Origin: Burkholderiales bacterium
Lineage (GTDB): Bacteria; Pseudomonadota; Gammaproteobacteria; Burkholderiales; Burkholderiaceae_C
DNA length: 64,000 nt
Direction of reading: 5' to 3'
Assembly (NCBI GenBank): GCA_947464185.1
Contig: CANHVY010000006.1
Span: forward strand, 37,033-101,032
The translations under genes were made by a program, and so were the position numbers. How positions within the stretch are numbered: position 1 is the first letter of the stretch; every line of letters starts with the position of its first letter. Shown in pieces: positions 10,250 through 14,585 of this stretch. The notes under the pieces were generated by a model that saw only the letters and a list, made by a program, of their open reading frames with translations, did no database searches and was not told the origin of the DNA.

Positions 10250-11371
10250 CTATTTGGGTTCAAGGCACAGGATCATTTCATCGGCGCTCAGTCGTGCAAG
10301 CCGTGGGCCGTGCTTTTTTGATGCGGGCCCACCCAGGGTGCTAAACACACTGGTCACGCTCTGCGTCTTGACCTTAAAGAGCTTGGACGCGGCGCTCTTG
10401 ATCATGCTGGCGTCGATGCCGTTTGAGCATTCATGGTCCGGAAAAGTAATGATTGCTGACACGTCGCGCTGAGCCAGCGATGCCAGCAGTTCTTTGATCG
10501 CGGGTAGAGATGTAGTTTTCTGGCTGTACCGCGAACTAGGCCGTTCATTCAACGGTGGGTAGCGGCCAACGCCGAAAACGGGGCTTGTGACCCCTGCCGC
10601 GATTGCTTCGAGCACATGATAGAAGCGGCTGTACTGGACGGCAGAGTACGGAGGGTCGATGAAGGCTAGATCGCCAGGCCTAAGCTGTAAGGCGATCTGG
10701 TTGGCATCGCCAACATGAGCTTCTCCGGCCACCTGCGCATGGAGTGGGGTGATCTGACCAAGCGCCGCCTGAACGTCGGCGCACAGATCGCGGTGCCAAC
10801 TAATCTGCAGGTACTTGAGCGCCGTATCTGTGGGCTGAAATGGCTGTGCTGTATGACCAGGGGATGCTGCGCATTTGCTCGCTGCTATCACAAGCGCGGC
10901 AAGGCAAATTTCCCGCTCGGGAGAACTTGCGGGAACGGTGTCTCGAAGCGCTTGAATCCATGCTGCCTGAACGGGACTGTAGTAGTGCCCAGCATAGGCA
11001 TAGACCAGGCTACTCTTGTCAAACTGGTTTGACCAGTTTCGAGCCTCTTTGACGAATGAGGCGTCAATGTCGCTGGGCGCCAGCGCACCGAAGGCGTCGA
11101 AACGCGATGTCGCCGGGCGCAGCCAGTCGTTCCAGAGTTCGACGGGATCAGCAGCGCTGTCTCGCTGGATTACGGCCCCAGCAAGAACTGCGCTGTAGCG
11201 TTGCAGATCAAACGCCCAAGTCTCGATCCGATAGCGTTCTGCCACGTGCCAAGCAACTGAAGCAGAGCCCGTGAAGAGGTCAATGAATCGCTTGTGTCGA
11301 CCAACCATCCCATTCAGCGCTTCACCCAGACCGTTGCCGAGCATTGCTCGCTTCGAGCCCATGTATTTCAA
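10250..11371 (-). CDS. D12-class (Dam-like) DNA N6-adenine methyltransferase
   Basis: MKYMGSKRAMLGNGLGEAL...FIDLFTGSASVAWHVAER (motif I) ... DLAFIDPPYSAVQYSRFYHVLEAI (DPPY motif IV); start overlaps stop of upstream gene. Confidence 0.85.
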   Translation of the reverse strand: MKYMGSKRAMLGNGLGEALNGMVGRHKRFIDLFTGSASVAWHVAERYRIETWAFDLQRYSAVLAGAVIQRDSAADPVELWNDWLRPATSRFDAFGALAPSDIDASFVKEARNWSNQFDKSSLVYAYAGHYYSPVQAAWIQALRDTVPASSPEREICLAALVIAASKCAASPGHTAQPFQPTDTALKYLQISWHRDLCADVQAALGQITPLHAQVAGEAHVGDANQIALQLRPGDLAFIDPPYSAVQYSRFYHVLEAIAAGVTSPVFGVGRYPPLNERPSSRYSQKTTSLPAIKELLASLAQRDVSAIITFPDHECSNGIDASMIKSAASKLFKVKTQSVTSVFSTLGGPASKKHGPRLARLSADEMILCLEPK

Positions 11372-12666
11372 AGACTAGTGCTCCAAGCAAGTAGCGCGTC
11401 AGCTCTTGACAGCAAGTGGGTATCCATGCTGCGCGTGGAGGTCGAATGCAGCTGAAACGGCAACGGCGTTGGCGGACCTTCTAGCTGACTCAGGTGCTCG
11501 AAGTCCATCCATTTCTCCTCAGGTCGTGTCCCGGAGTCGGGGTCGAAGAGCCCGGCGTGTGCGAGCCAGTCTTTGAGCCAATCTCTTGCAGGAGTCTTTG
11601 GGTGGTTGGCCAGCGCACTGTTGGGCATCAGTGTCGCCAAACGAAGCAAGAAAAACGCGCGCGCGATCATGTTTGCGGGCTTTAGATCGCTGGCAAACGC
11701 AAGCTGAAAAATCGGAGAAGGCAATGTGCCCTCATCGAAGAAGGCGGTCAGTAGTGTGCGGGGCGTGCCCGTGACTCTTTCTAGGTCCTTTACGAGGCGT
11801 TGTCGCCAAGTGGCGCGGGCAGCGTCGTCAACCGCAACCTCGTCGTCATTCAGCTCCGCATCAACGAGGTACCTGACAAGCTCTTGCTCGAAACGTAGGC
11901 CAAAGCCGGTTGGCTCTGCCAGGGCCCACAGATCACGCACGAACTCGAAATCCGACACCTGCATCGACTGAAGAGGGACCCTTGCTGTCGGCGTCTCGTA
12001 GCTTGCTTGATTTCTCGCCGTGTGCTCGTTCCCCATCGCAAGATCAAGCGCCCAGCGATTCAACGTCGTGTTCGCTGCGATTCGGCCAACGGATGCCTTG
12101 AGATCCCCAATCGTTACGGACGGCAGGATCTTCAGTTGCCCGAGCAATAGCCCTTCGGCGGACGGCGTCTTGGCCCAAGCCTCCCAAAGTTTCCAGACCA
12201 CTTCGTGCGTCCGCATGGTTCGCCAAGACGGCACTTTCGACGTCCCTCCGCGCTCCAAATAGCTGTTGTCTCGGTTGCTGACGCGCATGCCATGAGAGGA
12301 GAGGAGCGATATGGCTGCTCTCAGCTCGCCGTAGTAGGCGAAATGAATCGCTTGGGCTGGGGCGTTGCCGAGCATCGATGCAAGCGCAGCGGACAGAAAG
12401 CGCCATCCCTCTGTCAAATGCACGAGCGCATCAACGGCGAGAGCCGCTGGGGTCGTTGGCGGCTCGGTTGCTGGCAGCAGAGGAGCACCAAAGGGCTGCG
12501 CGGCTCGGCTAAAGCCGGCGTAGCTGCTCTGTATCAGGCCTGGGTCGCACAGGTCGATCGGGATCAGGCTTGCTGGCACCAATGGCCTAGTCGGAGGCGC
12601 ATTGCGATGTCGGCGGTTCTGAGGCTGGTTTCGTTGCGCATGGCTGCGGCGATGGCGGTTACTCAT
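11368..12666 (-). CDS. Uncharacterised 432-aa protein in DGQHR/methyltransferase operon
   Basis: Complete ORF overlapping both neighbours by 4-8 bp; helical stretch ALVHLTEGWRFLSAALASMLGNAPAQAIHFAYYGELRAAISLLSSHGM; no family recognised with confidence. Confidence 0.85.
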   Translation of the reverse strand: MSNRHRRSHAQRNQPQNRRHRNAPPTRPLVPASLIPIDLCDPGLIQSSYAGFSRAAQPFGAPLLPATEPPTTPAALAVDALVHLTEGWRFLSAALASMLGNAPAQAIHFAYYGELRAAISLLSSHGMRVSNRDNSYLERGGTSKVPSWRTMRTHEVVWKLWEAWAKTPSAEGLLLGQLKILPSVTIGDLKASVGRIAANTTLNRWALDLAMGNEHTARNQASYETPTARVPLQSMQVSDFEFVRDLWALAEPTGFGLRFEQELVRYLVDAELNDDEVAVDDAARATWRQRLVKDLERVTGTPRTLLTAFFDEGTLPSPIFQLAFASDLKPANMIARAFFLLRLATLMPNSALANHPKTPARDWLKDWLAHAGLFDPDSGTRPEEKWMDFEHLSQLEGPPTPLPFQLHSTSTRSMDTHLLSRADALLAWSTSL

Positions 12667-14206
12667 TGCCCCAGCCCAGAATTGCCAGTGCCCGCGAAGC
12701 GGCCTCGCTGACGTGCTCGTTCTTTGACTTCGAGGCCGCAGTCAAGGCAGCCTTGTTTAGCGCCTTGTAGCCACTGCTGCCACGATACTGACCCTGCATG
12801 ACCTTGTCTTGCTCGGCCATGCCGGGAGCGGCGCTGGTTCTCCAGTCGACGTCGTCGACCAATGCGGTCGCCACCGCATGAACAAAAGTTGTCAGATTTC
12901 GATTCGATTCCAACTGCTTCAGAGCCTTTCCAACGAGTTCATCGTTGGGCTCAGATTCATCCTCGGATCCTTCGATCTCCAGCAGCCCTACCTTGTCATA
13001 AACCAACTGCGCTAGGGAGTTGTACGCAAAGCTGACCGCGCGGAAGCCCTGGTCAGTAGCCAGCAGAGTAAAGGGGCCTGCAAATGCGTAAGTCGCTGCA
13101 TCTTCCCCTGACTTGCCTGCGCTTGCGGCAAGCGCAAGCTTCCATGGCGCCTTCGAGGCGGCCGTAGCTGTACGCATTGCGCTCCAGCACAATATCAAAA
13201 ACGCCGCTTGCTCCGGGCGTCTCCAGCGGATGATGTAGCGGGCTCCGTTCTTGTCGATGGAGCCAAATAGGCCCCCCAACTTAGTGATGTCTTCCGGGTC
13301 GGCCCCTGCGTCATTGCCCTTCGCCCAAGTCCGCACGAACGTTGCCATCAGCGAGCGTATCGCTGCAGCATTTGAAACGTGCCCATCGACCCGCTTGCCG
13401 AAAAGCTCAATGCGTTCCTTCCAAGGGCTGGACGGATTGCGCCAAAGAACTTCGGCCAGCTCTTGCGATCTATGCTCTTGGTAGATCTTGATCGACTCGC
13501 CTCGCTTGAGCCACTCTTGATCCCGCAGTTCGGGGTACAGATCGAATGCCAAACTCGTATTGATGCGCTTCGGCTCAACGTTGATGACCCAGAAAAGGTA
13601 CGCCTGCCAAGTCAGTGGCAAGTTGTCGAAAATGACGACCGGAACCTCGTAGTCATCGGGCAATGAAATCAGGTCCGTCGCGAGCAGCCGATGCTGCCCG
13701 TCGACAATTTCCAATGGCGGTAGTGCCTGGGCCGGATCAACATCGCCGACTGGGAAGTTCAGCTCGTAATGCTGACCATTAATGGAGATTCTTACGATAT
13801 CGGCGAGCGCGACGGTGCGCTCTCTGCCCTTCCTTGTGCGGATCTCGTTAAGGCCGAGCACGTTGACCAAGATGCTCGTAGGGAGCCACCCTGGATTGAC
13901 CAACTCGGTGTGGGCGGCTGGGTCCAGGCCGCCTTCAGTAGAAAGAGGAAATCCGTACTCAAGATAACGGCCAATTTTTGATAGCCGGTCCTCATCATGC
14001 GTGCGCTGATAGCCAGCAGTCTTGCTGGCTCGACGATCTTCGACGGTTCTTGGCTGAACGCCGCTTAGGGCGCGCAGGGTCTTAAGCGATAGCGAGCCGA
14101 CGTAGAAATGCGTCGGGGGCTTCGGACGATTACCTCCCCAGGTCGCCACGTCCCACGTCTGTAGCCATTGGTTGACTCGAAGTAATGGCCTGATATTTCT
14201 AGTCAT
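12659..14206 (-). CDS. DGQHR-domain protein (DndB/DpdB-like)
   Basis: MTRNIRPLLRVNQWLQTWDVATWGGNRPKPPTHFYVGSLSLKTLRALSGV...ALPPLEIVDGQHRLLATDLISLPDDYEVPVVIFDNLPLTWQAYLFWVINVEPKRINTSLAFDLYP; DGQHR motif followed by NVEPKRIN. Confidence 0.8.
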   Translation of the reverse strand: MTRNIRPLLRVNQWLQTWDVATWGGNRPKPPTHFYVGSLSLKTLRALSGVQPRTVEDRRASKTAGYQRTHDEDRLSKIGRYLEYGFPLSTEGGLDPAAHTELVNPGWLPTSILVNVLGLNEIRTRKGRERTVALADIVRISINGQHYELNFPVGDVDPAQALPPLEIVDGQHRLLATDLISLPDDYEVPVVIFDNLPLTWQAYLFWVINVEPKRINTSLAFDLYPELRDQEWLKRGESIKIYQEHRSQELAEVLWRNPSSPWKERIELFGKRVDGHVSNAAAIRSLMATFVRTWAKGNDAGADPEDITKLGGLFGSIDKNGARYIIRWRRPEQAAFLILCWSAMRTATAASKAPWKLALAASAGKSGEDAATYAFAGPFTLLATDQGFRAVSFAYNSLAQLVYDKVGLLEIEGSEDESEPNDELVGKALKQLESNRNLTTFVHAVATALVDDVDWRTSAAPGMAEQDKVMQGQYRGSSGYKALNKAALTAASKSKNEHVSEAASRALAILGWGNE

Positions 14207-14264
14207 TGGCACTCCCCGTACCTTTCCTACGACGACTCGATCTCCGGAGCGACCCTTAGACCGA

Positions 14265-14585
14265 GAACTACCGTTCCGCCTTGGCAGAAAGACCCGCCTG
14301 ACGCGCTGCCTTGGACGCCCGATAGCCGCCGCCGCACCATTACCACCCGGGCCCAAGCTCCGACAACCGCCAAAGTGTAGTCAAGCGGATCTTTGGCCTC
14401 GTGGAACGCCTTGGCATCGTCAACGATGGGCATGAGGTCCGCCACGATGCCCACCAGCGCACTCTTGAGCGCGTCTTCCAGGCTGCCGCCCTTGATGGCC
14501 GCGCTCGTCAATGCGCGGCCCGTGGCGTTGATGAGGTGGTAGGTGAGCTTCTCTGAGAAGGCAGGCAAAACCTGCAGCGCGGACC
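14265..14585 (-). pseudogene. Decayed C-terminal fragment of a filamentous-haemagglutinin/polymorphic-toxin-like protein (DUF637/pre-toxin-like region)
   Basis: Minus-frame LQVLPAFSEKLTYHLINATGRALTSAAIKGGSLEDALKSALVGIVADLMPIVDDAKAFHEAKDPLDYTLAVVGA, then coding potential shifts frame (YRASKAARQAGLSAKAER*); no start and no complete ORF of its own. Confidence 0.5.

Follow-up and report, generated by a model that had tools for sequence, protein, structure and literature searches.

Several of the described systems closest to the one considered here have ParB-like proteins linked to DNA modification. Two such proteins bearing a DGQxR motif, SspE (PMC13251355) and DndI (PMC11662687), are demonstrated nucleoside triphosphate (NTP)-dependent sensors of DNA modification that gate defence. 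Of the DGQHR type, a DndB-like protein binds both ATP and GTP, and DndB is described as repressing the dnd operon in an ATP-dependent manner (PMC12704722); the Dpd system is described as having a ParB-like ATPase, DpdB, that is part of its modification step (PMC12839542). Here, we describe a cassette of three genes in a 64,000-nucleotide stretch of DNA from a Burkholderiales bacterium (contig CANHVY010000006.1; hereafter the window), in which a DGQHR protein is combined with an all-helical protein of a new family and an N6-adenine DNA methyltransferase. We found no description of this triad in the open literature. By analogy with the above systems, we propose that it is, on balance, probably a mobile defence cassette resembling restriction-modification (R-M) systems. 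We lean to this reading because the linkage of the genes, the swapping of the methylase, the cargo position and a bias in gene decay all agree with it, while the defensive activity itself remains a proposal. The cassette comprises, in order of transcription:

14206-12659, minus strand: DGQHR protein (P0003), 515 residues, first gene of the cassette, with the motif LEIVDGQHRLLATD
12666-11368, minus strand: middle protein (P0002), 432 residues, all-helical, new family
11371-10250, minus strand: D12 N6-adenine DNA methyltransferase (P0001, class A), 373 residues, TTG start, DPPY motif

An earlier sequence-only reading of this DNA had taken these overlapping genes for one operon lying in a low-GC (guanine plus cytosine) block between catabolic flanks. 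The coordinates bear this out, with overlaps of 8 bp between the DGQHR and middle genes and 4 bp between the middle and methylase genes supporting a single operon, as does the composition, the block being 57-60% GC (56.9, 59.6 and 57.3% for the DGQHR, middle and methylase genes, respectively) against 67-72% in both flanks. The assigned identities also hold: P0003 scores 71.2 bits against the DGQHR family TIGR03187 (curated NCBI cut-off 58.85), P0001 scores 47 bits against PF02086 (cut-off 22) and matches the PADLOC model MTase_II at E 3e-20, and P0002 is unmatched. Genes for Bug receptors, an FAH-family protein and a GntR regulator make up the flanks; L042, a relative within the family, has the orthologous Bug and FAH genes with a different stretch, high in GC, between them and lacks the cassette. 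In a blastn comparison with Achromobacter sp. RTa (L004), the sole extended DNA match covers window positions 10250-14207 at 72%, with nothing adjoining. Because this homology ends at the start codon of the DGQHR gene and the stop codon of the methylase gene, the cassette consists of exactly three genes. Its horizontal acquisition is supported. The Pfam D12 model detects no further D12 methylase in the source genome. An open frame fragment, RALTSAAIKGGSLEDALKSALVGIVADLMPIVDDAKAFHEAKDPLDYTLAVVGAW, lies at 14227-14560 on the minus strand between the cassette and the FAH gene and is not present at the FAH loci of relatives.

Counting the window, the triad occurs at 21 independent loci, the other 20 being 14 prophage-like contigs, two plasmids, the Achromobacter island and three other genomes. 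Searches with the middle protein recovered Achromobacter, the Zymomonas plasmid pZZM405, the Rhizobium tumorigenes plasmid pRt932, genomes G374, G630 and G1022, and 11 IMG/VR contigs; a search with the DGQHR protein added three further contigs, all of which carry the middle gene. At 20 of the 21 loci, the middle gene is directly preceded by the DGQHR gene, the exception (L065) being a 3.4 kb contig on which the middle gene is 5'-truncated; the two genes are thus linked at every locus with a readable neighbourhood, and an adenine methylase stands beside this core pair at all 21. Of the 399 genomes of the order that were examined, two contain the DGQHR subfamily, and these two are also the ones with the middle family. 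Conservation of the triad is supported, and its methylase is not a solitary gene with chance neighbours. The cassette is rare, being found in roughly 1% of genomes or fewer. Two further, weak matches to the middle protein were set aside, one (L003, which would have been a third genome of the order) spanning 120 residues at E 4.6e-4 with an internal stop and the other (L009) falling in a transposase frame.

Several copies of the triad are phage cargo: it adjoins an integrase in L011, L012, L013 and L019, and in L016 and L020 late tail genes are close by. None of 50,697 phage records, lytic phages included, contains it. These prophage cargo positions, together with that absence, would fit a cargo that temperate elements carry to the benefit of the host better than a function in lytic phages. 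The Achromobacter cassette adjoins conjugative-type genes, namely a relaxase and, by inspection, a VirB6-type gene, and the sequence just upstream of it resembles a tRNA 3' end by eye, where ARAGORN calls no gene. On pRt932, two genes (503 and 748 residues) follow the triad (L006 12277-16369) and genes for a Mu-type transposase and TniB lie upstream, so that this copy may ride on a transposon. On pZZM405, genes with DUF4433 and macro domains stand about 2 kb past the triad (L005 11857-13580) in the pattern of the DarTG toxin-antitoxin system.

The evolution of the cassette is modular. The methylases fall into class A, the type of the window, and class B, the DpnM/Dam type (e.g., the L016 methylase matches DpnM at E 3e-53), with about 20% identity between the classes. 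The DGQHR and middle proteins co-evolve and the methylase does not: across the loci, the pairwise identities of the two core proteins correlate with a rho of 0.83, against 0.19-0.24 for the methylase with either of them. At least four changes of methylase class map to the tree of the DGQHR and middle proteins when strongly supported branches alone are considered. Thus, the class-B locus L016 has a DGQHR protein 71-77% identical to those of the class-A loci L006, L015 and L028. In L063 (8268-11851), an MT-A70 gene (PF05063) convergent to the core takes the place of the D12 methylase, and the class-B gene is likewise convergent in L012 and L020; given this orientation at three loci, the methylase could be expressed apart from the core, as in R-M systems. 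The class changes and the MT-A70 replacement indicate that adenine methylation, not one particular enzyme, is what the loci conserve. Accordingly, the idea of a three-gene unit stands in that the triad is conserved, but has to be modified in that the DGQHR and middle pair forms the core and the methylase is an interchangeable part.

As to what the methylases mark, class B retains N120, R124, N126 and P134 of E. coli Dam, of which N120 and R124 contribute to the reading of GATC in Dam structures. Distant relatives of class A (21-25% identity, with the common motifs GHxA/D and DPPYxxxxYSRFYHxLE) adjoin nucleases of the AlwI and BglII/BstYI families, and AlwI-type methylases recognise GGATC/GATCC (PMC3526280). 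We found no recognition segment that varies with methylase class in the core proteins, nor any core segment specially diverged at the L016 swap. A mark with a GATC core in both classes would be the simplest account of swaps that leave the core unchanged. The adenine methylation reported for Zymomonas ZM4 comprises CAGN4CTG, GAAGN7TCC and GANTC, with no GATC (PMC8432527); the same paper does not list the cassette methylase, and the sequenced strain may lack pZZM405. This methylome would count against a GATC mark if the plasmid were present and the methylase expressed, and we draw no conclusion from it. The observed/expected ratios of GATC in the cassettes and flanks (1.05 and 1.03) are uninformative on avoidance or enrichment. 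Across the window (1-64000), GATC is over-represented, with 294 sites where shuffled sequences predict 198, and shows no sign of avoidance. Elsewhere, on a plasmid of Roseibium aggregatum (L038 3935-8783), a distant class-A methylase shares an operon with a 581-residue protein and a DUF2357 protein, which is possibly another methylase-linked system.

The DGQHR protein is predicted, from its sequence family, to be an NTP switch of the ParB/Srx fold. The QR pair, DGQHR and FxxxN, the motifs given for DGQHR and GmrS domains (PMC4619093), are invariant across 12 homologues. P0003 nevertheless stays below the cut-offs that define DndB-type proteins (24.7 against 29.1 for Pfam DndB; 55.6 against 450 bits for DGQHR_dnd_1) and below that of the DpdB equivalog (23.9 against 300 bits), a weak DpdB match being present in 11 of the 12 family members. 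Foldseek searches with its model retrieved the ParB-like PadC (E 4.4) and SspE (E 6.8), neither of which is significant.

The middle protein has no credible family in Pfam, NCBIfam (2026), PADLOC or PHROGs and no sequence match in the PDB; its model (pLDDT, the predicted local distance difference test score, of 71) is all-helical and has no significant fold match among solved structures by Foldseek. Across 18 sequences of the family, H83, W88, H108, YY111-112, LR115-116, TH153-154, D208, RN218-219 and SY222-223 are invariant, and the His, Arg, Asp and Asn residues among them suggest a putative active or binding site. We propose P0002 as the effector, or a partner of the effector. Its all-helical layout and RNxxSY motif prompted a comparison with HEPN ribonucleases, which neither profiles nor folds favoured: hhalign gave a probability of 0.2% each against YaaC and AbiV-HEPN sequences (with few template sequences), and the Foldseek match to AbiV had an E of 2.2 and a probability of 0.20. 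A relationship to SspH was also rejected, the match being confined to one homologue (E 0.0006, covering some 60 positions of the profile) and absent in the other twelve. Neither P0002 nor P0003 has a DUF262 or HNH (DUF1524) Pfam match at E 1.

Taken together, we suggest the following scheme, with roles assigned by analogy to SspE, DndI, the DndB-like proteins and DpdB. The methylase would deposit N6-methyladenine (m6A) on host DNA as a self-mark, most likely at GATC or a site containing it. The DGQHR protein would act as a nucleotide-binding switch that surveys DNA jointly with the middle protein; on DNA lacking the mark, the binding or hydrolysis of an NTP would free the effector activity of the middle protein, which would then block the invader. 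Decay of the cassette goes in the direction such a scheme anticipates: the DGQHR gene is frameshifted and the middle gene bears an IS66-like insertion in L031, the DGQHR gene is frameshifted in L063, and the middle gene is truncated in L065, with the methylase frame intact in all three; none of the 21 loci has a broken methylase beside an intact core. A core that attacks unmarked DNA would be expected to leave such a bias, seen here in three cases of which some come from draft assemblies. We further entertain, tentatively, the more specific possibility of an m6A-gated defence of an undescribed type: whether adenine methylation is present or absent would be read by a ParB-like NTP switch together with a new family of helical effectors, and unrelated methylases could freely replace one another as the marking enzyme.

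Several observations pull the other way. The characterised DGQHR relatives are a repressor (DndB) or part of a modification step (DpdB), not restriction effectors. The sequence-only reading rightly reported no recognisable restriction nuclease, and Pfam, PADLOC, NCBIfam, PHROGs and fold searches recognise no nuclease, ribonuclease or other effector domain in any of the three proteins. If the methylases differ in site, a sensor of unmethylated sites could not stay constant across the swaps, as the core appears to. Finally, the cassette does not lie in a defence island: in this genome it is a small unit inside a catabolic locus, and the more informative context is the cargo position that it occupies elsewhere, on prophages, on plasmids and on an integrative island.

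Of the other explanations, an epigenetic regulatory module is the first to consider. Here, the DGQHR protein, partnered by the middle protein, would repress or otherwise regulate the methylase in a DndB-like, nucleotide-dependent way, and methylation would serve to alter gene expression or prophage behaviour and not to label self DNA for defence. The repressor role of DndB (PMC12704722) gives this a precedent, and the operon does start with the DGQHR gene and end with the methylase. However, unrelated methylases have been swapped in, some of them on the opposite strand and hence outside the operon, yet the DGQHR and middle genes persist, which is not expected of a regulator dedicated to one methylase; with the middle protein also left unexplained, we consider such a module unlikely. 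The decay bias, the compact size and the mobile carriers (plasmids, prophages and an island) would also suit an addiction (toxin-antitoxin-like) module, in which the core is a latent toxin restrained by methylated host DNA, loss of the element kills and defence is at most a by-product. No toxin fold is recognised, and we regard this as quite unlikely, though sequence by itself cannot separate it from the defence reading. The third alternative is a modification-assist or hypermodification module. The core pair would then assist in placing the adenine mark or in elaborating it, as DpdB assists in 7-deazaguanine insertion, and the product would shield the carrying element from host restriction as an anti-restriction cargo. 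This reading can draw on the weak DpdB matches (11 of 12 members), the place of DpdB in a modification step (PMC12839542) and the many prophage copies, but is quite improbable given the absence from the 50,697 phage records, the three unrelated methylase types that the same helper pair would have to serve, and the lack of a base-transfer enzyme.

With Dnd and Ssp, the proposed defence cassette shares a ParB/Srx-superfamily protein with a DGQHR (DndB) or DGQQR (DndI, SspE) motif in a modification-gated setting; however, their mark is sulphur and not adenine methylation, the cassette lacks the HNH domain of DndI and SspE, and its middle protein belongs to a new family. No dndCDE genes stand beside the cassette, which is bounded by catabolic genes, homology ending at the three genes. 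The Dpd system likewise places a DGQHR-domain protein next to DNA modification genes, with the weak DpdB similarity noted above, but the cassette has no tRNA-guanine-transglycosylase-type gene and its DGQHR protein falls short of the DpdB equivalog cut-off. GmrSD and other DUF262 type IV systems have a related nucleotide-binding ParB/Srx-type domain, whose motifs (PMC4619093) the cassette protein carries; in contrast to these, the cassette shows no DUF262 or HNH/DUF1524 match and always has a methylase. The type II R-M systems (AlwI, BglII/BstYI, DpnII) employ D12 adenine methylases, class B being DpnM-like and distant class-A relatives serving AlwI- and BglII-family systems, but in the cassette a recognisable restriction endonuclease is missing and the methylase is swapped with no visible change in its partner proteins. 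Another DGQHR arrangement at a type II R-M locus, on the Acinetobacter sp. TR3 plasmid pTR3_1 (L034 1084-5051), comprises a BglII/BstYI-family restriction gene, a helix-turn-helix gene, a class-A-like methylase, a 208-residue hydrophobic protein and a 383-residue DGQHR protein. The last of these is related to P0003 (profile E 4e-23) and likewise stands beside a class-A-like methylase, but the locus encodes a nuclease of a known type II family and, in place of the middle family, the 208-residue protein. The claim that the triad is not a named system has also held up, the core proteins of the window having no model match in PADLOC-DB 2023 and their homologues only the weak DpdB/DndB matches and the single SspH match. 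We class the cassette as a probable defence of the modification-based kind, distinct from Dnd, Dpd, GmrSD and type II R-M. As methylases have been exchanged naturally on cores that changed little, what the sensor reads can be tested directly. If the proposal is true, modification-gated immunity would gain a minimal system of 4 kb with a new family of effectors, and the DGQHR/ParB-type switch would be seen to work with plain adenine methylation in addition to the sulphur and deazaguanine marks from which it is known.

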